From positions 2,792,814 through 2,856,813 of the forward strand of contig CATQHT010000003.1 in assembly GCA_958296045.1 (NCBI GenBank): a stretch of DNA of 64,000 bases, given 5' to 3'. Source of the DNA: Rhodothermales bacterium (GTDB lineage: Bacteria > Bacteroidota > Rhodothermia > Rhodothermales > Bin80). Below, piece after piece: positions 2,160 to 63,952 of the stretch (position 1 is the stretch's first letter; each line of letters begins with the position of its first letter). The notes below the pieces were generated by a model. The model was not told the origin of the DNA. It searched no databases and saw only the letters and a program-made list of their open reading frames with translations. A program made the position numbers and the translations under genes.

Positions 2160-2724
2160 GGATGCTGTGAGCGTCGCAGAATATACCTACGCCAAATGAA
2201 GCCCGACATGCGCCTGTTGCGACGCTGCGGAACCGATCCAAGTCACACGGAAAGGCTCAGCACCCTTATCAGCGTTCGGATGCCTCAGGCGCCGTCACCT
2301 TAGCGCGCGATCCTGACGCGTGGCTACGTGCGGCGGGCGGGGATCCTGATTGCAATGAGCTCCGCGGAGCGGGCTATGAATTCCCCGTTATGCAAATACC
2401 AGTTGTGGCCCCTACGGTACGCATCGCGAACGGACCTGTGGCCCGCTAGCTCCACCGTGTAGGGATGGTCCTCACGCGTAAGCTCCTGCACTATGGTGCT
2501 CCTGGAACAAGCACCGTTGCGCCTCTTGCGGGAATCCCGCACCCTCCTGCTCCTGGATTGCATTGTGGGCGCGATGCCCGTCATGGTGGTGTTCATCAAA
2601 AGGATGGCCTCTTGTTCAGCGGGCTCGAAAGTAATAACACCTGCCCGGTTATCTGCGCACAATTTGTCAACAAGATCCGAACACGAATGCACAGGGCTCG
2701 TATGAGAAGGCATCCCTGACGCGG
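2160..2724. other. Gene-poor stretch with one doubtful small ORF
   Basis: No recognisable gene. The only sizeable reading frame is on the minus strand at 2324-2713 (129 codons, arginine-rich); it has no motif I recognise and its start abuts repeat R1. It may be a decayed accessory gene. No convincing promoter or terminator was seen. Confidence 0.35.
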
Positions 2725-2878
2725 TGCAGCGTAACCGTCCCGTAGACTACATTGAATGCAGGCCATGTGGCCATCTTATGTTTTGATGGGGTTCTACGTG
2801 GTTATGCCGTAGCCTCTGCTCCAGGCAGGTTGGGAGCATCCTCAGTCGTGACCTGACGGCTTGGATTTGCGATACCGT
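2725..2878 (-). repeat. Dispersed repeat R1, copy a
   Basis: About 150 bp, near-identical over its length to copies split around the serine recombinase element (7783-7914 plus 10108-10166) and at 33700-33908, with a diverged copy at 4922-5050 and a right half at 63766-63820. One end is marked by GTAACCGTCCCGTAG (2731-2745), the other by the complement of GGTATCGCAAATCC near 2865-2878. The R1 centre reads GTAGAACCCC/ATCAAAACATAAG on the minus strand. This uninterrupted copy serves as the reference empty site for the recombinase insertion. No ORF is conserved in it. Confidence 0.8.
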
Positions 2879-3823
2879 GCGCCACGAAGGCGCGGAGGGA
2901 TACTGATTGTCCAACGACAACTAGAATTGAGACCAGCGACAATTAGAATTGCGGTTGGCGAGGAGAATCCGCCTTGGTGCCATAGTTGCCTGGGCCCTGG
3001 ATGCTGGCATGGTTTATGGGAGGCGGAGACTTCGAGTCCGGTGGATGTTTGTCCAGTCCATTCTTCAGGATGGACGCGATGCTCCTGTACGAGCGCGTGC
3101 CGATCGCGAGTGCCCTCGTACTAGCGCTTTCCATGCGGTTCTCCGCAGGTGCGAGCCAAGCGGAGCAGGCCCATGAGCGTGCGGAAACGAAGCAGGGGGT
3201 GCGGCTAAGCATCGATGATCTGCTGCACGATCTTGCGTGTGTCCGGCCCGACGCGCTCTGCCTGCGTAATTGACAGCGCGAAGGTCGCTGAGCGTATGCA
3301 CGCCGCAGAGCATCGCCTGGGCGCTGGTGAACCACGCCAAGCCAGAACGCGTTACCGGACATACTGCACGCCCACTGACCGAAACGTATTCAACCTGTAA
3401 CGGCGCTGCTGATGCAAAGGAATCGGTGCTCGGACCTGCGTTCGCAGCGCTTGCCTTTCGGGCGTACCTACGCGGACACCGCGAGGGTCCGCATAGGTCA
3501 CGGGCACCGACCGTGAGTGTGCGGATTATCGTGCACCCACTGCAAACATTTGGAATAGGGAACCGTTTTCCGGCCGCATGGCACACGGTAAGGAAATATG
3601 CACCGCTCAGGCTATGGACAAGAGAAACGTCAGACTAGCGGCCACGCGCACAACTCCCGCCCCAGGTACGAGTCTTGCGCGGGCGATTTCCCGTCGCTTG
3701 GTTAAGCTGTACGGCACGTGCAGAGATCTGGCATTGACCATCATCGTACGCAGGGCTGGAGTCACGGGAACTGACGGCCACTGCGACTCGGACGAAGGTT
3801 ACGGCCACACACCTGCAGGCATC
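2879..3823. other. Gene-poor stretch between R1 and the Panacea-like gene
   Basis: About 0.9 kb without a gene I can support. Overlapping frames in both strands are short, arginine/serine/cysteine-rich and look like noise. The frame of the downstream Panacea-like gene is open back to 3578, but that extension has no counterpart in its paralogue at 34464-35123. The stretch may be remnant mobile DNA. Confidence 0.4.
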
Positions 3824-4495
3824 TTGAAGACAGAGCCACCCCGCATCGCCAAATTCGACCAGCAGGCGAACATCGTGCTGGCAGCTATGGCCGCTGGTGG
3901 AGTAGGAGCACAATTTGATCCTGTTAGAATTCAGAAGCTCCTGTTCCTGATCGACCGCGAGGTTCCAAGAGCAGGCGGGCCCTTTTTCTCGTTCGCGCCA
4001 GACGACTACGGCCCCTTTGATGGTGCTGTCTACAGCGTGCTCTACCAGCTTGAGACCAACAGTAGCGTGGTGGTGGACCGAACCGGCCCATACGCAACGT
4101 TCGAATTATCGCAAGCGGGATATCATCAGGGGCAGTCCGTGCTGCACCAATTTGAACGTCGAACTGCCAAGTCGATCACCAGAAGATCACGTTGGGTGTT
4201 ATCACTGGCTTTCTGGGAGCTCATAAGGGTGGTTTACAGGGCATACCCGGACATGGCGGTCAACAGCAGGATACCAGAGCAGATACTCAGAATCAGTGTT
4301 AAGCCTTCGGTGGCGCCCCGCCCGTTTCTGGCAGGTATGACGAAGCTCTACGGCACATGGCAGCCAGAGGATGACCCGACGGCCGATCTGTCTCCAGAAG
4401 AGCAGGATTGGTTGGCCATCGCTAGCGACTGGTGGGCTGTCGGCGACGATCTTCGCACCGTGTTTGGCCAGCTGAATTTAGCCAAGGAAACCTGA
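3824..4495 (+). CDS. Panacea-like (DUF4065-type) protein, copy 1; putative antitoxin
   Basis: About 223 residues. The core VRIQKLLFLID...FSFAPDDYGPFDGAVYSVL matches the Panacea/DUF4065 pattern (helix with KLLFL, then YGPF and a second helix), followed by a winged-helix-like FELSQAGYHQGQSVL segment. Panacea domains are known as antitoxins that neutralise varied toxins encoded beside them. A clear paralogue lies at 34464-35123, sharing DIVLAAMAAGG-like, RWVLSLAFWEL and PxDLSPEEQD-like blocks. I chose TTG 3824 because it gives an N-terminus of similar length to the paralogue's ATG; the frame is open further upstream, so the start is uncertain. The stop overlaps the ATG of the following DUF2335 gene (TGATG), implying translational coupling. 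Antitoxin function is inference. Confidence 0.7.
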   Translation: MKTEPPRIAKFDQQANIVLAAMAAGGVGAQFDPVRIQKLLFLIDREVPRAGGPFFSFAPDDYGPFDGAVYSVLYQLETNSSVVVDRTGPYATFELSQAGYHQGQSVLHQFERRTAKSITRRSRWVLSLAFWELIRVVYRAYPDMAVNSRIPEQILRISVKPSVAPRPFLAGMTKLYGTWQPEDDPTADLSPEEQDWLAIASDWWAVGDDLRTVFGQLNLAKET

Positions 4496-4944
4496 TGGCA
4501 GACCGCTCTCCAACCGCCCCGGGCCCTAACGATTCTTCGACGTAGGACAGCGCAAGGCCGCTCACGCCATCAGCAGAGAAGCGTGTACTGGTTTTCCAAT
4601 CAAGGCAATTCCATGCTGGACCACTACCAACACCGCAGCACATGCGCCAGTACGACGAGGTCGTGCCCGGTACGGCGGAGCGATTACTGTTGCTGGCCGA
4701 GAAGCAGGCAGAACACCGCCGAGAAATTGAACACTTGGTAGTAAAGAGTGATGGGCGCCTCCAAGAGTGGGGGCAAAGATTCGCCTTTGCTCTGGCTCTC
4801 ATTGGCATCGGAGGCGGCCTGTACCTGCTCAACCTAGACAAACCCATCGGAGGCCTGGCCGCGGTAATGGTTGCCGCATGCTGGCCCTTAGCGATCTTAC
4901 TCCGACGCAGGCGCGTCGGAAGGCGCAACGTAACCGTCCCGTAG
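4495..4944 (+). pseudogene. DUF2335 membrane protein, copy 1, with in-frame TAG near the 5' end
   Basis: Translation from ATG 4495 meets TAG at 4543-4545 (codon 17), then the same frame runs open to 4944. After the stop it encodes QFHAGPLPTPQ, then DEVVPGTAERLLLLAEKQAEHR, a charged helix, and two hydrophobic segments (about FAFALALIGIGGGLYLL and PIGGLAAVMVAACW) ending in an Arg-rich tail. This is the DUF2335 layout: soluble proline/charged start, two membrane segments. The paralogue at 33972-34464 shares GPLPxPEQ, PGAAK and KPIGGLAGV-like blocks, showing that homology begins well upstream of the internal ATG 4642. The protein may be dead, or restarted internally. In the gene pair it would be the toxin-like membrane partner of the Panacea-like protein (inference). 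Its last codons run into R1. Confidence 0.65.
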
Positions 4945-5050
4945 AGAGCATTTAAGCCGGGAGGTTTGCCCTGCATATATTTGGGTGCGTTCTTCTATGG
5001 CTATGCGGTAACCTCGGCTTCGGGCAGGTTGAGGTATCCTCAACTCGGCA
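4922..5050 (-). repeat. Dispersed repeat R1, copy b (diverged)
   Basis: Begins with GTAACCGTCCCGTAGAG at 4930-4946, right at the end of the DUF2335 gene, and continues with a diverged R1 body (TATGCGGTAACCTCGGCTTCGG replaces TATGCCGTAGCCTCTGCTCC in copy a). Same orientation as copy a, so the two form direct repeats around the Panacea/DUF2335 pair. The 280 bp from 5050 to the IS66 element hold nothing recognisable. Confidence 0.65.
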
Positions 5051-5329
5051 GAGCAGCCATGACTGGTAGCTCTGACAGGTATCGCTATTCGCCGATGTTC
5101 TTTGGGTGTCTGGTTGCGGGTACGGGTGATCTTCTATTGAGGGCGCACCTAGTCAATGATCGAGCGGCTATGTGGCTGCAGTGCGGACTGGGATTGAAGT
5201 GCTTTTTTGGCATGTAGGCGGCGTAGTCACGCAGGTATGGCCGCGTATAGAAGGGCGGATCGTAGGTGCAGTATTACGTACGGATGGAGGCAGCAGAGCA
5301 TGGTTCATGGTCTTGCTCCGCGCATCCTT

Positions 5330-6982
5330 CTATGGAGGTGCCGGGGGATGGAGTGGCTGCCACTGGTGGGGTAGTAGCAGGTGGATCTTTTTGGCTGGAT
5401 GTCCCGCAGCAATGCGTGGCAGCACATCTTCGAGCCATTTTACGGGATTAACGCCGTGCAACCGGCACGTTGCCAGGAGCGTGTAGAAGGTGGCCATCTG
5501 CTTAGCTGCGTGGTGGGATCCGCAGAAGAGGTAGTGTTTGTGACCGATCGCAACCGTGCGCATGGCCCTTTCGACGGCGTTGGTATCAATTTCCAGGCGT
5601 CCGTCGTCGATGTATCGGCACAGCCGGTCCCACCGCGCCAGCGTGTAGTGCTTGGCCTTGCCCAGTAATTCCTTTGGGAGCGTATTCTGCTGCTGGAGCC
5701 ACGATTTAAGGTGGCGCAATACGGGTTTGGCCTTTTGCTGCCGCGCGATGCGTCGTTGTTCTGCAGAGGCATGGTTCTCGCGCAGCTGCGCTTCTATCCG
5801 GTAGAGCGTTCCTATTTGCTTCAGCACGAAGGCGGCTCTGTCGGGATCGGTACGGAGGGCTTGGTAAAAGTTACGTCGCGCATGGGCCTAGCAGTTGGCC
5901 AGTATGATGTGGGCATCCCGAATGAAGGTCAAGTAGGCGGCATATCCGTCGGTATGCAGCACGCCCTGGAACCCATGCAGGAATCCTCGTGGCACCTTGC
6001 TTCCGCGTCCGGGTGCGTATTGGTAGACCAGCAGCTTCTGTTTAGGGCAATGGTAGACCCAGAAGTATCCGCGATGAGTGGATCCTGTCTTCTTGCGATC
6101 CTGCACGCGGATCGTGGTCTCGTCCACCTGCAGGTATCCGCTCTTGCGTACCTGATCGGCCACGGCAAGCGCGAGCTGTTCCAGGTCAAAGCCTACCTTG
6201 TCCATCCAGTTTCCCATGGTGGACGATGGGATCTTTTAGCCCGAGCCGCGCTCTATTATCTTGGCTAGGCGGTGAAGCGGTAGACCATCCTCGACTTTGG
6301 ACGTAACAAGGTGCGCCAGCAACGATTCATGTACTCGCCCGCTGGGAATAGTGCGCGCAGGGAGTGGAGCGATACGCAGCCCCTTCGAAGGATCGGTGCT
6401 ATGCGCAAATACGCGGCGCCTATAGTTGATCACCTTCAGGTACCCTGGCTCCCACGCTACCACCTTGGTACTCTCAATTCGAATCGGTTTCCAGCCTTCC
6501 AGGTCTCCTTAGGGGTTAAGAAAGATCTCTTCCCTTGGCAGGTCGTCTGGCAGTTTGCTACGCTGCCCTTGGCGCCGCGTCTTGGGTTTGGCGTTCGCGC
6601 GATGGTCCTTAGTCGGTGTGCCCTGTACACCCGGGCGCGAGGCCGACGTATCTGCTGTCGCTGACGGTGGCGGCTTCTGATCCGCTGTCGCGCGGATGTC
6701 GTCGCTCACAGGCGGCTTTGGCTTCACACGCGCCTGTAAGCGCTCGCTTGTGCTGCCAAAGAGCTTTTGGGAGAGCTCACTGAGTTGGTCTTTGAGCTTG
6801 GCCATATCCTCGGCCAGACCTGCGTTCTTTGCCTCCGACCGCTGCCGTTGCGTACGCTCCTCGCTATGCAGGCGCCGCCAATGGTCACGCTTCGAACGAA
6901 GCCGCTCGACCACCGCGCGATGGTCCAGCTCGAGCCTCGCGCAACGCGGACAGGGGCGCTCCTGGGCAGGGATACTTGGCAC
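5330..6982 (-). pseudogene. tnpC: IS66 transposase TnpC, broken by three in-frame stop codons
   Basis: The frame runs unbroken for 551 codons except for stops at 6509-6511 (TAA), 6236-6238 (TAA) and 5888-5890 (TAG); no frameshift is needed. Domains in order: coiled-coil leader (RSEAKNAGLAEDMAKLKDQLSEL then QKLFGSTSERL), zinc-binding/linker region, and the DDE core with GYLQVDETTIRVQD, VLHTDGYAAY, and ERAMRTVAIGHKHYLFCGS carrying the catalytic Glu. The C-terminus WLEDVLPRIAAGHPAKKI is the usual IS66 ending. The TAG at 5888 falls between NC and AHARRNF, where the family normally has Trp, so it is a one-base W-to-stop change. The first two stops also follow family-conserved positions. Inactive unless read through. 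Confidence 0.9.
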
Positions 6983-7037
6983 GCCCTATTAACTCATGGC
7001 ATTTGCAAGTAGTTTCGAGAAGTTTATGTGAAGATAG

Positions 7038-7367
7038 TTATGAATCGGAACCCCGAAACCGGGGTCGATAGCGCACCGTCGCAGGCCGTACCCGGTCCAA
7101 GAGCATCATGAGCTCCGCCCATAAAGGCGTCGCGGTCTCTGGCAGCTCAAACGTCCGCGACTCGAGACGCTTGTTGTACAAAACCCACCCGCTGCGATCC
7201 CAAACCGGAAAAGTGATATGTGTCCGACGGTGGTTGATGAAAACGAACACATCGCCCAAGAGAGGATCACGCTTCATGCCCGAGCGCACCAGACTGCACA
7301 ACCCGTCAAAGCCTTTGCGCATGTCCGTAGGCTCCCGGCAAAAATGAAACACGTGCGACGGCCCCAA
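7038..7367 (-). CDS. tnpB: IS66 accessory protein TnpB
   Basis: A 109-residue protein of normal length for IS66 ORF2. The family blocks PTDMRKGFDGLCSLV, LGDVFVFINHRRTH, FPVWDRSGWVLYNKRLE and TFELP are all present. TnpB is needed for transposition of IS66 elements although its biochemical role is unsettled. It lies 2 bp after the end of tnpA and 55 bp before tnpC. It is the only intact gene of this element, so it is probably a relic. Confidence 0.92.
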   Translation of the reverse strand: MGPSHVFHFCREPTDMRKGFDGLCSLVRSGMKRDPLLGDVFVFINHRRTHITFPVWDRSGWVLYNKRLESRTFELPETATPLWAELMMLLDRVRPATVRYRPRFRGSDS

Positions 7368-7369
7368 TG

Positions 7370-7683
7370 CTAATATGACTGGCTCCGCTCACGCTGTAAC
7401 GCAGACCCGAGAAAGTCCGCCGATACCGGCGTGTACACGCGCAGACGCGCGCCGCCTGGAAACTCGACCTTTATCAACGCCCGCTCATGTACCTCCGGTG
7501 ACGATACATCCACAAAGGCGCCCGAAGCCCGAGACACAGATGCCGCGTACTTCTTGCGCCAGTAGTAAAAACCACGCTCCGACAGGCCGTGCTCAAGGCA
7601 CAACGCCTTCAGGCTCTGCGCACCACCAAAAAACGCTCCACCAGCGGAAACATGTCGTCCAAACTACGACGTAACGATGCCAT
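7370..7683 (-). pseudogene. tnpA: IS66 ORF1 (TnpA), frameshifted
   Basis: From ATG 7683 the sequence reads MASLRRSLDDMFPLVERFLVV, then runs out of frame; the frame that continues the family sequence (SLKALCLEHGLSERGFYYWRKKYA) is offset and open to 7370. A single indel near 7625-7640 explains this. The C-terminal half from 7603 remains open (77 codons). In intact IS66 elements ORF1 is a small helix-turn-helix protein. The break means the element lacks a functional ORF1 as well as TnpC. Confidence 0.75.
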
Positions 7684-7782
7684 TGCACCCCCCAGTTAAG
7701 TTGCTCACTGACCGACGCAACAATATCGGCAGCTCAAGCCCCTCAGCGTAATATGTACACTACGGGACACTTCTTCCCCGCC

Positions 7783-7914
7783 GGTGACGACCACTACATG
7801 CCTGGAGCAATCCCATAGACACCTGCTCGGTATCGCAAATCCAAGCCGTCAGGTCACGACTGAGGATGCTCCCAACCTGCCTGGAGCAGAGGCTACGGCA
7901 TAACCACGTAGAAC
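7783..7914 (+). repeat. Dispersed repeat R1, copy c, left half (attL side)
   Basis: Matches R1 copies a and d from CACTAC near 7790 through GGTATCGCAAATCCAAGCC to CCACGTAGAAC, which ends at 7914. There the match stops abruptly and resumes at 10108 on the other side of the recombinase element. Upstream, 7741-7782 carries a weak TACACTACGGGACAC resembling the R1 terminus. Confidence 0.8.
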
Positions 7915-8020
7915 TAACAACATGGAACCAAAAAGACTGTTGCGGCTGGATCGTGTTTTCGCCCGGCCCTGATGATGAATCTCTTGCATGTGATCGTATA
8001 CCAGATGTATTATAAGATGC

Positions 8021-8341
8021 ATGAAGCGAGCTTCACTGACCGAGCGTGCCGCACGCGTGGCTGCGGCCAAGTCGCTGTGTCGGGAGCACAGCACCGCAGA
8101 AGCGGCGCGCATCCTTGCCGCACGGTACGGCATCTCCCGAGTGCAGGCTTCGCGTTATGTCCGTGCGGCGCGCGAAGCGGATTCTTCGCTGGCTCGGGCG
8201 GAGGCTACCGCGCCCCTGAGTGTCTGGATTCCTGTGGCTCTGCTTGCGCGTGCGCGGGCTCGTGCACGCCATACCGGTGTGAGTCTGGGGGCGCTGGTGG
8301 CTCGAGCGCTGGCGCGTCTCTTGGACAGCGATTCACCGTGA
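8021..8341 (+). CDS. Small helix-turn-helix DNA-binding protein of the recombinase element
   Basis: 106 residues, basic and alanine-rich. Residues about 8-45 (RAARVAAAKSLCREHSTAEAARILAARYGISRVQASRYVRAA) have the spacing of a helix-turn-helix, with GISRVQASRYV as recognition helix. The C-terminal LSVWIPVALLARARARARHTGVSLGALVARALARLL resembles a ribbon-helix-helix-like dimerisation end (WIPxxLLxRAR then GVSLGALVARAL). It probably regulates the element or helps direct recombination; this is inference. ATG of the next small ORF follows the stop directly at 8342. An in-frame start upstream is not apparent. Confidence 0.7.
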   Translation: MKRASLTERAARVAAAKSLCREHSTAEAARILAARYGISRVQASRYVRAAREADSSLARAEATAPLSVWIPVALLARARARARHTGVSLGALVARALARLLDSDSP

Positions 8342-8566
8342 ATGCGTCCTATCCGCCTGACATACAAACCGGACCGGGCTGCGCAGCAGCGCATAGCACA
8401 GGCCTACGAGCTGTTGGTGCAGCACCGGATTTCGGAAGACCATACCTCCTCGCATGAAGCAAGAAGAGAAGATCGCGGCAGTGTACGTGCGTGTATCAAC
8501 CGAACTCCAGCGGCGTCAGCAGACGATAGACAGTCAGCTGGAGGCCGTGCTGATGAACGCGCGTGA
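8342..8566 (+). CDS. Small uncharacterised protein overlapping the recombinase start
   Basis: ATG 8342 lies immediately after the stop of the helix-turn-helix gene. The 74-residue frame begins MRPIRLTYKPDRAAQQRIAQAYELLVQH and overlaps the recombinase gene (start 8454) in another frame for its last third. Only the first 37 residues or so look protein-like; similar short genes often precede large serine recombinases. I do not recognise a domain. It may be genuine with a translational coupling role, or accidental. Confidence 0.4.
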   Translation: MRPIRLTYKPDRAAQQRIAQAYELLVQHRISEDHTSSHEARREDRGSVRACINRTPAASADDRQSAGGRADERA

Positions 8567-10148
8567 GCGTGGCTGGGCCATTGATAAGCAGCAGATCTTT
8601 GCTGACAACGGCTACAGTGGTGCCACCCTCGCCCGCCCCGGCTTGGACGCCTTGCGCGACCTGGTCGCCCACGGAGTCCTCGCGTATGTGTTGGTCCTAT
8701 CTCCCGATCGGCTCAGTCGCAGTTTCGCCTATCAGGTTCTGCTTCAGGAAGAGTTTGAACGCAACAATACCCGTCTTGTCTTCGTTGAGGAACCGGATAA
8801 CGCGACGCCGCAGCAGGTAATGCTGCGCCAGCTTCTGTCCGTACTGTCAGAGTATGAGCGTGCGCAGATTATCGAGCGCTGTCGCCGCGGTAAAATCTAC
8901 AAGGCCCGCCAGGGCTCTCTGAACATGATCAGCAGGCCTCCCTATGGTTATGACCTGATTCGTAAGACGGAGACCTCCGGCGCACGATTGGTGATCAATG
9001 CGTCCGAAGCTGCGGTGGTGCGCCTGATTTTCAAGCTTTATACCGAACCGGGCGGCACCCTGCCGTCAGTAGCACGGAAACTGGATGCACTGGGCCACCC
9101 CCCTCGGCACGCGAAGTACTGGAGCTCCTCCACCGTTTCTGTCATCCTGCGCAATGAGGCCTACATTGGTAAGGCAGCGTATCAGAAGACGACCAAGGCG
9201 GACAAGCGTGCTCGGCGCAATCGCACCGGGCGCAGCAAGAACGGTGCCGTACGGCGCATGTATTCACGAAAGGCTCGTCCACGAGAAGAGTGGATTATCT
9301 TGCGCGTGCCACCAATTGTTGACGAAGAAATCTTCCAACGTGCGCAAGAGCGGCGCAAACATAACACTCGCTTTTCCGGGCGAAACACGCGTACGCCAAG
9401 CCTCTTGCAGGGGCTATGTATCTGCGAGCAATGCGGATATTCGATGGGACGGCTCCTAGATTCGAGAGGCTCCACAAAGTACTATCGGTGTTTGGGGTCG
9501 GAGCCTTGGCGTTTTCCCGAAGGCGCCGTATGCGACAATCCCAAAATCAACGCCGATGCTATCGACGCAGAGGTGTGGAAGGCGGTGGTGGAATTGCTGG
9601 AAGCTCCTGAACTCATTCAGGCCGAGATTGATCGTCGAATCAAAGCAACTCGGGACCAGGGCCCAGCGCAACGGCGCAAGGACGAGCTGCAGAAGGAGCG
9701 TATGAGCTGTGGAAAACAAAACCGCCGACTGGTTGACGCATACCAGCAAGGCGTTATAAGTCTGGACGAGCTGCGCGATCGAACCGGACCGCTGCAAACG
9801 CGACTGCGGGCCATCGACTCCGAGCTCCGGGCACTAAAGGCCTATCAGATGGATGCCACGTCTACCTTGACGTTCGCCCACAGCGTTCAGAAATTTGTAG
9901 CGCGGATGCGTGAAGGCGAAAAGGACATGTCCATCACGGAACGTCAGCAGTTGGTTCGGCTCTTGGTTCGCGAAGTACGCGTCGGCAAAACTGAAGTCAC
10001 GGTATGCCATTGCATTCCGCTGGCACCCTCGGCAGACCCCAAGCAACGCTCCGACACGCCCCTGGCCTCGCCAGCCAGCGAAAATGACCATTTGGTTACA
10101 TGTCGTGATCAAAACATAAGATGGCCACATGGCCTGCATTCAATGTAG
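8454..10148 (+). CDS. Large serine recombinase (site-specific integrase)
   Basis: 564 residues. The N-terminal resolvase domain shows AAVYVRVSTELQRRQQTIDSQ with nucleophile Ser15, and LSPDRLSRSFAYQ with catalytic Arg residues. The recombinase domain follows (ISRPPYGYDLIRKTE, VVRLIFKLYTEPGGTLPSVARKLDALG, VSVILRNEAYIGKAAY). A zinc ribbon (GLCICEQCGYSM...YYRCLGS...VCDNP) comes next, then a long charged coiled-coil region (about 385-470) and a C-terminal helix. This is the large serine integrase family, which cuts both att sites at a 2-bp core via a Ser-DNA link. The last dozen or so codons and stop (10146-10148) lie outside the element in the R1 target, so integration supplies its C-terminus. 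Confidence 0.93.
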   Translation: MKQEEKIAAVYVRVSTELQRRQQTIDSQLEAVLMNARERGWAIDKQQIFADNGYSGATLARPGLDALRDLVAHGVLAYVLVLSPDRLSRSFAYQVLLQEEFERNNTRLVFVEEPDNATPQQVMLRQLLSVLSEYERAQIIERCRRGKIYKARQGSLNMISRPPYGYDLIRKTETSGARLVINASEAAVVRLIFKLYTEPGGTLPSVARKLDALGHPPRHAKYWSSSTVSVILRNEAYIGKAAYQKTTKADKRARRNRTGRSKNGAVRRMYSRKARPREEWIILRVPPIVDEEIFQRAQERRKHNTRFSGRNTRTPSLLQGLCICEQCGYSMGRLLDSRGSTKYYRCLGSEPWRFPEGAVCDNPKINADAIDAEVWKAVVELLEAPELIQAEIDRRIKATRDQGPAQRRKDELQKERMSCGKQNRRLVDAYQQGVISLDELRDRTGPLQTRLRAIDSELRALKAYQMDATSTLTFAHSVQKFVARMREGEKDMSITERQQLVRLLVREVRVGKTEVTVCHCIPLAPSADPKQRSDTPLASPASENDHLVTCRDQNIRWPHGLHSM

Positions 10149-10166
10149 TCTACGGGACGGTTACGG
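10108..10166 (+). repeat. Dispersed repeat R1, copy c, right half (attR side)
   Basis: Resumes the R1 sequence at ATCAAAACATAAGATGG and runs to the terminus CTACGGGACGGTTACGGTGCAG. It encodes the tail and stop of the recombinase and lies 30 bp upstream of the BNR-repeat gene start. Confidence 0.8.
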
Positions 10167-10195
10167 TGCAGCGCCCGAAGGACCTACCTGAACCG

Positions 10196-23500: not shown

Positions 23501-26235
23501 TTACGAGCAATGCTGTGGTCAGTCTTATTGACGACGATGCCACGCCCGGCATCGAGCTCAGTGTGGGTCCGGCGACGGTGAGCGAGGATGCGGGGGCCAC
23601 GACGGTGACGGTGACGGCGACGAAGATCGGAAGTGCTTCCTTCCCTTCGGATCAGTCGGTGCCGATTTCCGTGAGTGGCTCAGGCGTTACCGATGTGGTG
23701 GACTTTGCGGCGGTGAATGACTTTACCATCACGCTGGGGGTGAGCAGTTCGTCTGCACAAGGCACGTTCACGTTGACGCCCACCGATGACACGGAAGATG
23801 AGGCGGATGAGACGATCGCCATTTCCAGTACGCACGCGGCGGTTTTGGGAAGCGTGACACTTGTATTGACTGATGACGATGATGCGCCTGGCATCGAGCT
23901 CAGTGTGAGTCCGACGACGGTGAGCGAGGATGCGGGGGCCACGACGGTGATGGTGACGGCGACGAAGATCGGAAGTACTTCCTTCCCTTCGGATCAGTCG
24001 GTGCCGATTTCCGTGAGTGGCTCAGGCGCTACCGATGTGGTGGACTTTGCGGCGGTGAATGACTTTACCATCACGCTGGGGGTGAGCGGTTCGTCTGCAC
24101 AAGGCACGTTCACGCTGACGCCCACCGATGACACGGAAGATGAGGCGGATGAGACGATCGCCATTTCCAGTACGCACGCGGCGGTTTTGGGAAGCGTGAC
24201 ACTTGTATTGACTGATGACGATGATGCGCCTGGCATCGAGCTCAGTGTGAGTCCGGCGACGGTGAGCGAGGATGCGGGGGCCACGACGGTGACGGTGACG
24301 GCGACGAAGATCGGAAGTACTTCCTTCCCTTCGGATCAGTTGGTGCCGATTTCCGTGAGTGGCTCAGGCGCTACCGATGTGGTGGACTTTGCGGCGGTGA
24401 ATGACTTTACCATCACGCTGGGGGCGAGCAGTTCGTCTGCGCAAGGCACGTTTACGCTGACGCCCACCGATGACACGGAAGATGAGGCGGATGAGACGAT
24501 CGCCATTTCCAGTACGCACGCGGCGGTTTTGGGAAGCGTGACACTTGTATTGACTGATGACGATGATGCGCCTGGCATCGCGCTCAGTGTAAGTCCGACG
24601 ACGGTGAGCGAGGATGCGGGGGCCACGACGGTGACGGTGACGGCGACAAAGACAGGCAGTGGCGCCTTTGTTTCGGACCAGTTGGTGCCGATTTCCGTGA
24701 GTGGCTCGGGCACTACTGATGTGGTGGACTTTGCGGCGGTGAATGACTTTACCATCACGCTGGAGGTGAGCAGCTCATTCGCCGACGGCACGTTTACGCT
24801 GACGCCGACGAACGATAGCGTAGACGAGATGAACGAAACCATAACGATCTCGAGTACACACTCCGAGGTATTGGGAAGCACGACACTCGCGCTGACAGAT
24901 GACGACGATACGCCAAGCATTGCGCTTAGCATCAGTCCGACGATGGTAAGCGAGGGCGCGGGAGCTACCACGGTCACGGTGACAACGACGAAGATCGGCA
25001 GCACTTCGTTTTCTTCGGATCAGTCGGTTCCGATCTCTGTGACTGGATCGGGCACTGCAGGAGTGGTGGACTTTGCCGCGGTGAGCGATTTCACCATTGC
25101 GTTGGCGGCCAGCAGCACTTCTGCCGAAGGGGCGTTTACGCTCACGCCGGAAGATGATGCGGAGGTTGAAGAAACCGAAGTTATCACGGTCTCTAGCACC
25201 AGCGCCCTGGTGACCGGGTCGGTCCTCCTCTTATTGACCGACAACGACGCGATTCCAGACGGACTGGTGTTGAGTGTGCACCCGTCCGCTGTGAACGAAG
25301 GGGCGGGTGCCGCGACGGTGATCGTAACTGCGACCGTGTCTGGGAGTGGCACGTACGATGCCGCGCAGGTGTTGACGCTGTCGGTCACCGGCTCCGGCCT
25401 GCTGCCAGCAGTTGACTTTGCAGACGTGGCGGACTTTGACCTTACCGTGGATGCAGCGGCGTCCAGCGGCGCGACAGCGTTCTTACTGAATCCGGTGGAC
25501 GATCATACGGACGAAACGGACGAACTCATCAGGGTGAGTAGCACGCATGCCAGTGTACTTGATACCGCATGGGTCACGCTCAGCGACGACGATGCGCCCC
25601 CAGCAGGGGTTGTGTTATCTGCATTGCCTGCCACCGTGGATGAGGGCGACGGACCCACGCCAATAGTCGTCACGGCCGCGACAAGCGGTGCCACCGTTTA
25701 TGCCGTGCGCCAGGAACTGATGATTGCCGTGACCGCATCCGGCGCGGCCGGTGCCGTGGACTTTGTGCCCGTCAGCGACTTCACACTCACGCTTGTCGCT
25801 GAAGCCGCCGAAGGCACCGCATCCTTCACGCTTACGCCAATTGACGACCAGGATAGTGAATCCGACGAAACGCTCACGCTCAGCAGCGACAGCCCGATTG
25901 TGCTGGCATCCACAACCGTCACTCTCACCGACAACGACAGTCCCACCAGCACGGAGCAGCCGGAAGTCACCACAGGAATTCGTATAGCGCCACCGTATCC
26001 CAACCCCAGCACAGGGATCATCACGTTCACCGTCACGGTACAGGAAGACGTCGGAACCATCAGCCTCAACCTCCTCAACCTCCTTGGACAACTGGTCGCC
26101 ACACCCATGGAAGGGATGCCGCAGCCAGGCGAATACACCATCCGGTTTGACGGGCAACACCTTCCGGCCGGTGTGTATGCCTACGTGCTGGATACAGCAA
26201 TGACCCGCCAAAGCGGAAGCCTCATACTTCAGTAG
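20551..26235 (+). CDS. Secreted S8 subtilisin-like peptidase with Calx-beta repeats and T9SS sorting domain
   Basis: 1894 residues from ATG 20551, chosen because it opens a standard signal peptide (RRGTTLRW then FLICLFVALAWSSVPAVHAQ); the frame extends to 20431. Domains: propeptide (about 35-170), S8 catalytic domain with Asp196 (IVDDGTEW), His253 (ASHGTRVAG), oxyanion Asn in VVAAAGN, and Ser410 (GTSFSTP), all intact. A beta-sandwich region (about 480-880) follows, then about eight tandem Calx-beta domains (about 888-1800; calcium-binding DDD ends), and a C-terminal PYPNPSTG...YTIRFDGQHLPAGVYAYVL type A sorting domain, cleaved on export by the type IX secretion system. Probably surface-attached or secreted. 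No T9SS machinery is in the window. Confidence 0.93.
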   Translation: MSSQRRGTTLRWSTFLICLFVALAWSSVPAVHAQSVLRKLGNSNAADDVMPGVVLVRFVDGQTPSPAGSLAEFEGLRALGSDLFISEIRQAFPMLEAVARKRPISASMEWLRGVYEIRYDGQFAPRTVARLLERRPEVEVAEPRFTYKITEYGEMGADTPDDPGFPDQTHLRQLRLPDAWDITKGESGSRVIAIVDDGTEWTHSDLVGNMWTNPGEIAGNNIDDDGNGFVDDIHGWNFRSDNADPVPTGDASHGTRVAGAANAVTNNGEGIAGAAWNAETMAINIECRTVPLLCYSVSGVLYAALNGADVINASFSSNSRSVVMQAAVQAALDNGALVVAAAGNYHLNSDRAPRYPSDYHQVLGVGATNKDSDRIASFSNYGRSVNVFAPGVNIDVTHRNGLYARASGTSFSTPLTSGVTALVMEQHDTWEPERIREHIRLTSDNTDASNDAAYRGLMGRGRVNAYSAVSTTTENPGVRLVSYTVEDLNSDGIFQPSEPVTITATFTNFGGSATNLSVGFTASEPTYVVWSPSSVSVGALAHGASHTGTFTFSPVASIPNNTWVSFASAITDGSFTDSPDVIPGFILNALPTFMTHRTTNLVVSIADDCNIGYRKFQGGASDGGGFRIRSNGQWYDLLYEGGLIMATAQDKMVDCIRDGNFPGQGQNEGFAPKSGTWPTLSDPGQIASMDGNVQMVESSSSTAALGLEVVLDSYTFNEAGHEEYIMLEYTIANTTSSSVSGLYFGMFLDWDLELSAAEDKSSYDAQRKFGYQESSSGTSLAAGVRLLSDEGSLLFTAIDNVADLYDGFTDAEKWSFLSGGVVSGTISDTDIALLLGAGPLSISGNNTAKVVFALVAGDSETALLVSADAAKAKYDVIFGSGGTPTTFELTASPSSVSEDAGATSVTVTATVTGGGTAAAEALIPISVAGSGTASAVDFASVSDFTLTVASGASSGEGSFMLTPVNDNTDELDETITITSSNTFVTSNAVVSLIDDDATPGIELSVGPATVSEDAGATTVTVTATKIGSASFPSDQSVPISVSGSGVTDVVDFAAVNDFTITLGVSSSSAQGTFTLTPTDDTEDEADETIAISSTHAAVLGSVTLVLTDDDDAPGIELSVSPTTVSEDAGATTVMVTATKIGSTSFPSDQSVPISVSGSGATDVVDFAAVNDFTITLGVSGSSAQGTFTLTPTDDTEDEADETIAISSTHAAVLGSVTLVLTDDDDAPGIELSVSPATVSEDAGATTVTVTATKIGSTSFPSDQLVPISVSGSGATDVVDFAAVNDFTITLGASSSSAQGTFTLTPTDDTEDEADETIAISSTHAAVLGSVTLVLTDDDDAPGIALSVSPTTVSEDAGATTVTVTATKTGSGAFVSDQLVPISVSGSGTTDVVDFAAVNDFTITLEVSSSFADGTFTLTPTNDSVDEMNETITISSTHSEVLGSTTLALTDDDDTPSIALSISPTMVSEGAGATTVTVTTTKIGSTSFSSDQSVPISVTGSGTAGVVDFAAVSDFTIALAASSTSAEGAFTLTPEDDAEVEETEVITVSSTSALVTGSVLLLLTDNDAIPDGLVLSVHPSAVNEGAGAATVIVTATVSGSGTYDAAQVLTLSVTGSGLLPAVDFADVADFDLTVDAAASSGATAFLLNPVDDHTDETDELIRVSSTHASVLDTAWVTLSDDDAPPAGVVLSALPATVDEGDGPTPIVVTAATSGATVYAVRQELMIAVTASGAAGAVDFVPVSDFTLTLVAEAAEGTASFTLTPIDDQDSESDETLTLSSDSPIVLASTTVTLTDNDSPTSTEQPEVTTGIRIAPPYPNPSTGIITFTVTVQEDVGTISLNLLNLLGQLVATPMEGMPQPGEYTIRFDGQHLPAGVYAYVLDTAMTRQSGSLILQ
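23212..25950 (+). repeat. Tandem Calx-beta repeats inside the subtilase gene
   Basis: Units start at 23548, 23890, 24232, 24574 and 24916, a strict 342-bp (114-codon) period; one diverged unit precedes (about 23212) and two follow (about 25258, 25606). The units at 23548, 23890 and 24232 are nearly identical at the DNA level, including synonymous sites, while outer units differ widely. The code of each unit runs from GIELSVSP to LTDDDDAP. Confidence 0.92.
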
Positions 26236-33699: not shown

Positions 33700-33908
33700 G
33701 CCACCGCCGGAGATCACCACTACACGTGTCGAGCAATCCTATACATACCTGCTCGGTATCGCAAATCCAAGCCATCCCATCACGGCTCAGGATACTCCCA
33801 ACCTGACCGCAGCTCAGACTACCGCATAACCACGTAGAACCCATCAAAACATAAGATGGTCACGTAGCCTGCATTTAATGCATTCTGCGGGACGGTTACG
33901 TTGCACCT
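33700..33908 (+). repeat. Dispersed repeat R1, copy d (longest)
   Basis: Full copy, about 200 bp: CACTAC and GAGCAATCC near 33717-33745, CCTGCTCGGTATCGCAAATCC at 33750-33770, centre CACGTAGAACCCATCAAAAC around 33833-33849, terminus CTGCGGGACGGTTACGTTGCACC at the right. It lies just after the 3' end of the leftward DUF2335 gene, as copy b does for the first module. Confidence 0.8.
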
Positions 33909-63260: not shown

Positions 63261-63573
63261 GACCATAGTAGCTACGAAGCCAGCGAACAACGCGTGGATG
63301 ACCACGGGGCGGAGCCGGTGGAGCCAAGGGTCGCACCCAAGGGGAAAGCGGAAAGCTGGATTCATGCCGGACTCTGGGCCGGATTTCGTGAATCTGTCCA
63401 TGGCTGTGGACTCAGAGCCACAGTCGGGGCGCAGGTGTACCGCTTACGGCTGGAGGTGGGTATTCCCACTTCCTAACGTCATGCACGCCGGTGCGACCTG
63501 CGGGAGGAGCCGTGTGCGTTAACGCGCACGCACGGATCTGTGCGGGGCCCCAGGGGAAACCCTGGGGCTACCG
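63261..63573 (+). mobile_element. Degenerate group II intron piece E
   Basis: 63261-63400 resembles the RT gene 5' region (ATAGTAGCTA-GAA-GCAGCGAACAA), then sequence is lost, and CATGCACGCCGGTGCGACC leads into a domain V (63507-63539: GAGCCGTGTGCG, TTAA, CGCGCACGCACGGATCT) and domain VI ending CTACCGCGAT at 63573. The domain V stem keeps its pairing although it differs from C/D by compensated changes (GGATGCG/CGCCCGTCC versus GTGTGCG/CGCACGCAC). A third, older intron with a large internal deletion. Confidence 0.75.
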
Positions 63574-63765
63574 CGATGGCGCGTGTGGGCAGGGCTAATG
63601 AGCACCGAAAATTCCATTGTCTGGGATGCCGAGGCTTTGCTTCTGGTCGAAGGCAACATCTTCTTTGCCGCTAATGGTGAGGCGGAGGAGAGTCCCACGG
63701 TGTCTAAGAACCCAGGCACGCACGTACGTACTACGCCGGGACCTGGGAGGTCTCTGTGTCACCAT
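63574..63765 (+). mobile_element. Group II intron domain I fragment F
   Basis: Matches the domain I part of C and D from GGCGCGTGTGGGCAGGGCTA to GGAGGTCTC-GTGTCACC, where the match ends and R1 right-half sequence (ATCAAAACATAAG) begins at 63767-63768. The true 5' start of this copy is missing. Confidence 0.78.
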
Positions 63766-63820
63766 CAAAACATAAGATGGCCACATGGCCTACATTTGAT
63801 GCTCTCTACGGGACGCTTAC
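63766..63820 (+). repeat. Dispersed repeat R1, right half only (copy e)
   Basis: CATCAAAACATAAGATGGCCACATGGCC through CTCTACGGGACGCTTACGCCGCAC. The left half of R1 is absent; intron fragment F takes its place. The break falls at the same central position that the serine recombinase element uses in copy c. Confidence 0.75.
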
Positions 63821-63952
63821 GCCGCACTTATATCTGAATGAACGGTGAATCCTATGCATCCATCAGGGCTATGGGGCCCGCGTAGTCGCCAGCAGGCCCA
63901 GCCGAAGGCTGAGCACGGTATCTTCTGGCATGAACCGCGTACGGCCTGAATC

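Follow-up and report, generated by a model that had tools for sequence, protein, structure and literature searches.

The interruption of the repeat R1 in the window, that is, the whole stretch of 64,000 nucleotides analysed here, is very probably due to a small mobile element that pairs a ribbon-helix-helix (RHH) protein with a large serine recombinase (LSR) and that inserts at short sites carried by other mobile elements. This explanation is built on the layout of the element, its ends, its sites, the corresponding empty sites, and the finding that elements nearly identical in sequence occupy one site in hosts that have diverged.

The window element and the IS66-family end

The insert of 2193 bp (2.19 kb) at 7915–10107 consists of an HTH/RHH ORF and an LSR gene. 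It lies, with its surroundings, among the following features (window positions):

2723–2730, no strand: 8-bp repeat GGTGCAGC outside R1 copy a
2731–2880, minus: R1 copy a (uninterrupted R1 over 2721–2880), the inverted end of the unit 2731–10164
5330–5827, 5888–6217 and 6509–6982, minus: IS66-family TnpC in pieces (Pfam)
7038–7367, minus: IS66-family TnpB (Pfam TnpB_IS66)
7778–7914, plus: left half of R1 copy c (inner part of the IS66-family end)
7915–10107, plus: LSR element, type A, whole; ends taken from intact R1 and from the other copies in this genome, one of type A and 11 of type B
7917–7938, plus: left inverted arm, approximate (best 14/18 against the right arm)
8021–8341, plus: gene for a 106-aa HTH/ribbon-helix-helix (CopG-like) protein (type A against type B; rhizobial relatives)
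8454–10148, plus: large serine recombinase gene, with its final codons and stop inside R1 (Pfam, PHROG)
10085–10107, minus: right inverted arm, approximate (best 14/18 against the left arm)
10108–10164, plus: right half of R1 copy c, up to the IS66-family tip
10165–10172, no strand: 8-bp repeat GGTGCAGC outside R1 copy c
33704–33905, plus: R1 copy d, uninterrupted (83% over 202 nt)

The HTH/RHH protein is 91% identical in amino acids between the two types of element found in this genome, A and B (dN 0.046, dS 0.140), and can be aligned with rhizobial relatives whose genes carry a CopG-family annotation. The recombinase has the domains of a large serine recombinase, namely a Resolvase catalytic domain (105.2 bits in Pfam) followed by Recombinase (73.7) and Zn_ribbon_recom (42.1), all above cut-off, and matches a PHROG integrase family at 1.8e-100. 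Its ORF overruns the element end at 10107, which confirms the proposal of the first-pass annotation that the enzyme takes its C-terminal codons and stop from R1. The length of the ORF varies with this host-derived tail: 564 aa in L031, 556 aa in L032, and 600 aa in L033–L042, the ten type-B copies at a common IS1634 site, where the tail comes from host-IS sequence. A second small ORF (8342–8566) has a dN of 0.103 against a dS of 0.057 and unequal lengths in A and B and is therefore not treated as conserved. The PHROG comparison of the 2193-bp element gave no phage structural genes, a strong match for the LSR only and weak regulator-like matches for the small ORF; the element was accordingly not classed as a prophage. 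Inverted 18-bp arms, which had been proposed to match at 15 of 18 positions, do exist at the ends, with a best ungapped count of 14/18, a value equalled by 5 of 20,000 random pairs.

R1 had been taken for a free-standing dispersed repeat. It is, judging by the sequence, the non-coding terminal region of an IS66-family insertion sequence, because IS66 proteins adjoin copy c, because the copies extend into common IS upstream sequence, and because a unit bears R1 ends and an 8-bp repeat. The gene block at 5330–7367, which adjoins copy c, matches DDE_Tnp_IS66, DDE_Tnp_IS66_C, LZ_Tnp_IS66, and TnpB_IS66 in Pfam; the host of the window copy has both the TnpB and the TnpC proteins of this family, the latter fragmented. 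R1 a and R1 c terminate in GTAACCGTCCCG / CGGGACGGTTAC, and the unit 2731–10164 has an R1 end on each side and the identical 8 bp, GGTGCAGC, beyond both. The IS66 family makes a target duplication of 8 bp; terminal inverted repeats and such a duplication are found here for this unit, not for a single IS. When R1 and its surroundings were compared with the whole of the window's own genome (G000, 4.78 Mb, 4 contigs), there were 42 matches, about 30 of them R1 or parts of it. Most R1 copies run on leftwards into the common IS66 upstream sequence, which led to the rejection of R1 as an independent repeat, and terminate at GGGACGGTTAC(G). The composite-looking IS66 unit (2723–10172) carries passenger ORFs, including one for a DUF2335 protein (4642–4944) and a 305-aa ORF (3578–4495) with no Pfam match.

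Comparison with uninterrupted R1 bears out the split of copy c at 7914/10108, and copies a and d are indeed empty sites. At the insertion point, intact R1 reads GTAGAACCCCATCAAAAC. The right junction (GTCGTG/ATCAAAAC, the slash marking the junction) is clean with respect to it, and the left junction (GTAGAAC/TAACAAC) lacks the four bases CCCA. Base for base, the insertion is thus not exact relative to intact R1, contrary to the claim of an exact position at its centre, and attL and attR, which were to be read directly, are not readable base by base at the window copy because of these four missing nucleotides.

Several other arrangements were seen around R1 and in the window. A group II intron (Rfam RF02005, 63506–63712; region 63500–63826) terminates within a few bases of an R1-like half with CATCAAAAC as its first letters, near the break point of the LSR element in R1. 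In L194 (5472–5760; G000:C3, near 41690), the left half of R1 stops at CCCC-AT, which is the type-A core position, and runs directly into the start of a ParA-like ORF, with no right half in the 19 kb covered. Positions 23529–25196 of the window hold five tandem copies of a 342-nt repeat, 71–100% identical to the reference over 300 nt.

Repeated insertion in the window's genome

The genome contains 13 full copies of the element and 4 partial ones. Type A comprises the window copy and L032, which both abut R1 and have 10 differences between them; L032 is bordered on its right by R1-like sequence (82% over 67 bp) and has a left side without R1. Type B, about 90% identical to type A, comprises 11 full copies, none at R1: ten (L033–L042) lie in one IS1634 site, and L043, which has a frameshift near the LSR start, lies in another gene, which looks from its translation like a transporter permease. 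Relics also occur. Those in L045 and L047 are eroded LSR ends (44–50% identity in separate pieces) beside R1-like sequence, and that in L044 is an RHH piece (69%), likewise beside R1-like sequence and in the opposite orientation; the junctions of these three, as read by eye, are about 20 bp from the type-A site. The presence of old relics beside R1-like sequence thus indicates that IS66 ends were invaded more than once. L046 has a similar right end and is at another site.

The first-pass annotation had R1 acting as attB. R1 is used as a target, since both type-A copies abut it, but it is unlikely that R1 is the dedicated attB of the LSR and that the element integrates only at its centre. Such exclusiveness would agree with the R1-like sequence on the right of both type-A copies and with the relics that also sit in R1-like sequence. 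However, of the 13 copies in this genome, 11 occupy sites with no relation to R1, which is the very observation that had been named as the one to overturn the claim; the relatives elsewhere occupy mostly reverse transcriptase (RT) genes of group II introns, and also transposase genes, instead of R1; and the left junction at R1 is not exact. An R1-only reading is therefore already contradicted for the family, even if type A alone may still prefer R1, which leaves R1 as one of the att sites used by a family whose targets are mostly other mobile elements.

The host of type B is an IS1634 transposase (NCBIfam transpos_IS1634, 272.2 against a cut-off of 100), which is broken within FDLTN. A search for this site, with its right part as the query, found 19 copies that start from the junction at ≥94% identity, 10 of them occupied and 9 empty and full-length, as well as one additional empty fragment. 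The empty site is CACATTGGTCAGGTC, and the occupied site is CACATTG-GT/GACAACATGG ... CCACGTCGTG/GT-CAGGTC. When joined, the type-B arms form a near-palindrome with GT at its centre (18/22).

The ten elements at this site are 0–4 nt apart over about 2191 nt, whereas nine host IS1634 copies are 25–81 nt apart, with a median of 44 (these are the occupied copies other than L033, the IS of which is truncated). For five of these nine, the nearest IS1634 copy is an empty one; that of L041 is L085, 12 nt away. Since nearly identical elements occupy diverged hosts that are mixed with empty copies, one element lineage evidently entered existing IS copies on repeated occasions. In a tree of 18 IS copies (L093 and L099 were dropped), there are 4 changes between occupied and empty labels, compared with a mean of 6.3 in shuffled labels, where 28 of 500 shuffles were as low; well-supported branches force 2 changes. 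As far as sequence comparison goes, the contrast in divergence between elements and hosts is strong evidence for repeated insertion, and the tree alone is weak evidence.

Another possibility is gene conversion, in which the element spreads among IS1634 copies via homologous recombination in their shared flanks (about 1.2 kb and about 0.9 kb) and not via the LSR. A poorly resolved IS1634 tree is what recombination would give. This possibility is nevertheless a distinctly improbable one: within 100 nt of the junction, the occupied copies (0.55% and 1.21%) are no more alike than the empty ones (0.99% and 0.51%), and gene conversion does not account for identical LSRs in different RT genes. The diversity near the junction thus gives no sign of gene conversion, although short tracts may still occur.

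It is very improbable that there was a single entry into IS1634, followed by transposition of an IS1634::LSR composite using the transposase of intact copies. The ten copies do share one site, and several occupied IS1634 copies have their own 4-bp flanking repeats, as read by eye; however, a single composite was rejected on the divergence of the elements (0–4 nt) versus that of their hosts (25–81 nt), and the occupied copies are interspersed with empty ones.

Relatives and their target genes

Relatives of the LSR in plasmid records are 37–45% identical among the matches listed. Five plasmid loci (L109–L113) have a small gene, annotated as CopG-family in four, together with the LSR, and are located next to or within a group II intron RT gene that is split; the halves are not all annotated in L112 and L113, and those of L110 match RVT_1. 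A single-protein query against genome contigs returned no relatives, and a query with an LSR alignment gave 182, of which 80 were taken further; four of the six rows of this alignment came from RT-inserted members, so the search may favour that clade. In 148 genomes of the window's wider lineage, the LSRs outside its own genome are 22–34% identical.

Of the 85 loci examined, 81 have an RHH homologue upstream of the LSR. The calculation of inverted ends was possible for 81 of these 85; the ends match at ≥18/22 in 67, of which 56 reach 20/22; the best match in random flank pairs (n = 26) was 14–16 of 22. The length of these 67 has a median of 2242 bp and lies between 2200 and 2320 bp in all but L160 (2693 bp), where the repeat is probably outside the element. 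The relatives measure about 2.24 kb and carry inverted ends of 22 bp.

A group II intron RT flanks the element in 61 of the 85 loci, on both sides in 42 and on one side in 19; it is found on neither side in 24, of which 8 have <250 nt of flanking sequence on one of the sides. No RT hits were found at 18 more distant LSR loci from the window's wider lineage, the flanks of which are short. In 37 of the 42 loci with RT on both sides, the two flanks are on the same strand (17 plus, 20 minus). The other five (L120, L137, L138, L157, and L168) are mixed, perhaps due to inversion between copies, rearrangement, or misassembly.

The arms match at ≥18/22 in 36 of the 37 same-strand loci, and the arm motif could be placed in 33 (the other three were dropped). 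In all 33, rejoining the two RT parts places the crossover on the codon that precedes the S of PQG[GSA]x-x-SP (PQGGx/x/SP), with GQG in two cases and SA instead of SP in one. On the RT N-terminal side, 31 of the 33 have T as the second core base. Both core bases agree between the sides in 17 of the 33, which is unusual for an LSR; the unequal cores of the other 16 suggest a tolerance of mismatches, mostly at the first core base, or a later change.

The RT flank in 61 of 85 loci could also mean that the RHH–LSR pair has long been a component of certain group II introns and was passed on with them, as opposed to invading them, but this is hardly credible given that the pair occurs in both orientations relative to the RT (the 17 plus and 20 minus cases), that one genome, B. 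erythrophlei, has four identical LSRs in different RTs, and that the same type of element is found in IS transposases.

Other hosts are IS1634 in L114 and L116 (NCBIfam); ISNCY in L115 and L117, by best score and with partial proteins below the model cut-off; IS110 in L193 (NCBIfam); and IS21, below cut-off, in L136. The right flank of L189 is like that of L193, and its LSR is identical. L167 splits a protein kinase gene and is, with L043, L132, L147, L152, and others, among the loci with no nameable mobile-element gene at the site. In the LSR tree, the A and B types of the window's genome group with L114–L117 in one clade (100/100), where the hosts are IS1634, ISNCY, and IS66. The other branch has 81 rows: 63 RT, 15 other, 2 IS110, and 1 IS21. 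Its RT count exceeds the 61 of the search through the addition of L144 and L177 by eye from their junction letters, and L144, where only SPL was read on the right, may be a chance case. The tree was rooted at its midpoint, which does not set the direction of host switching.

Proposed mechanism, known systems, and significance

LSRs cut and rejoin DNA at a 2-bp core between palindromic half-sites, and the ends and empty sites described above fit such a reaction. The LSR would excise the element as a circle, the joined arms of which would form attP, and would insert it at short target sites on other mobile elements. In this way, type A would have entered a non-coding IS66-family end in the window; type B, ten different IS1634 copies at one site; and the relatives, in many phyla, group II intron RT genes, at the codon just ahead of the conserved S in PQGGxxSP. 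Conserved, multi-copy mobile-element sequence would thus serve as attB. The RHH protein may be a regulator of the LSR or a directionality factor. Copies could be gained by excision from one sister chromosome and subsequent reinsertion, and a low cost to the cell might be the reason for the choice of target. The attP/attB architecture behind the proposed mechanism is that of an excerpt of PMC3783163. The 24 of 85 relatives without an RT flank, the loci with no nameable mobile-element gene, the four nucleotides missing at the left R1 junction, the left side of L032 without R1, and the agreement of both core bases in only 17 of 33 RT cases count against the proposed explanation, as do the coverage of 80 of the 182 relatives and the RT-inserted origin of four of the six alignment rows.

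The serine recombinase of the IS607 family also drives a short element, but, according to an excerpt of the literature, its TnpA has an inverted domain order and minimal target specificity, whereas the present element has an LSR with a zinc ribbon and a fixed site; the score against the IS607 NCBIfam model was 38.6, below the cut-off of 110. The SCC recombinases CcrA, CcrB, and CcrC were also rejected (119.6 against 900, 99.6 against 900, and 52.5 against 700, respectively). Other close known systems are the LSR transposons of the TnpX/TndX kind, such as Tn4451 and Tn5397, and the phiRv1 prophage, which sits in the REP13E12 repeats of M. tuberculosis and has an LSR for which the repeat is attB. 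The likeness to phiRv1 is in the LSR with a repeated sequence as attB; the difference is that phiRv1 is a prophage made of phage genes, whereas the present element is 2.2 kb long, has two genes, and belongs to a family with a common host preference.

TnpX/TndX transposons are likewise LSR-driven and use many genomic sites. The same holds for the clade of multi-targeting LSRs in Durrant et al. (2022, PMC10083194, in excerpt). DUF4368 is common in this clade (63%, in the same excerpt), but it is absent from the window LSR among Pfam matches at E ≤ 0.001, and the LSR was not assigned to the TndX-like clade by this marker. Unlike that clade, the present element consists of two genes without cargo, and its insertions are concentrated at fixed codons of mobile-element genes. 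Helper-embedded PICIs (PMC10111431, in excerpt) resemble it in lying at fixed sites in the genes of another element and in having an integrase clade confined to hosts of this kind; they differ in being phage satellites with many genes and regulated excision. In PMC open-licence full text, a scope that leaves subscription papers and preprints outside, no paper describing the family was found, nor was a description found of its lifestyle, in which the enzyme genes of other mobile elements are entered at fixed codons.

On balance, the comparison slightly favours a cross-phylum class of two-gene LSR elements that live off mobile elements, with RT and transposase codons as attB, interruption of the host element, and radiation by switching between introns and IS. 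If this is true, the DNA of conserved motifs in the enzymes of mobile elements would be a landing site, as tRNA genes are for phages, and the target would be present in many genomes and many copies, with only a small cost for the cell. As every insertion disrupts a gene for a transposase or an RT, the family might also restrain those elements. The family offers compact LSRs with natural multi-site targets, and the window's genome, where one site exists in 10 occupied and 9 empty full-length copies, would allow copy gain to be studied.
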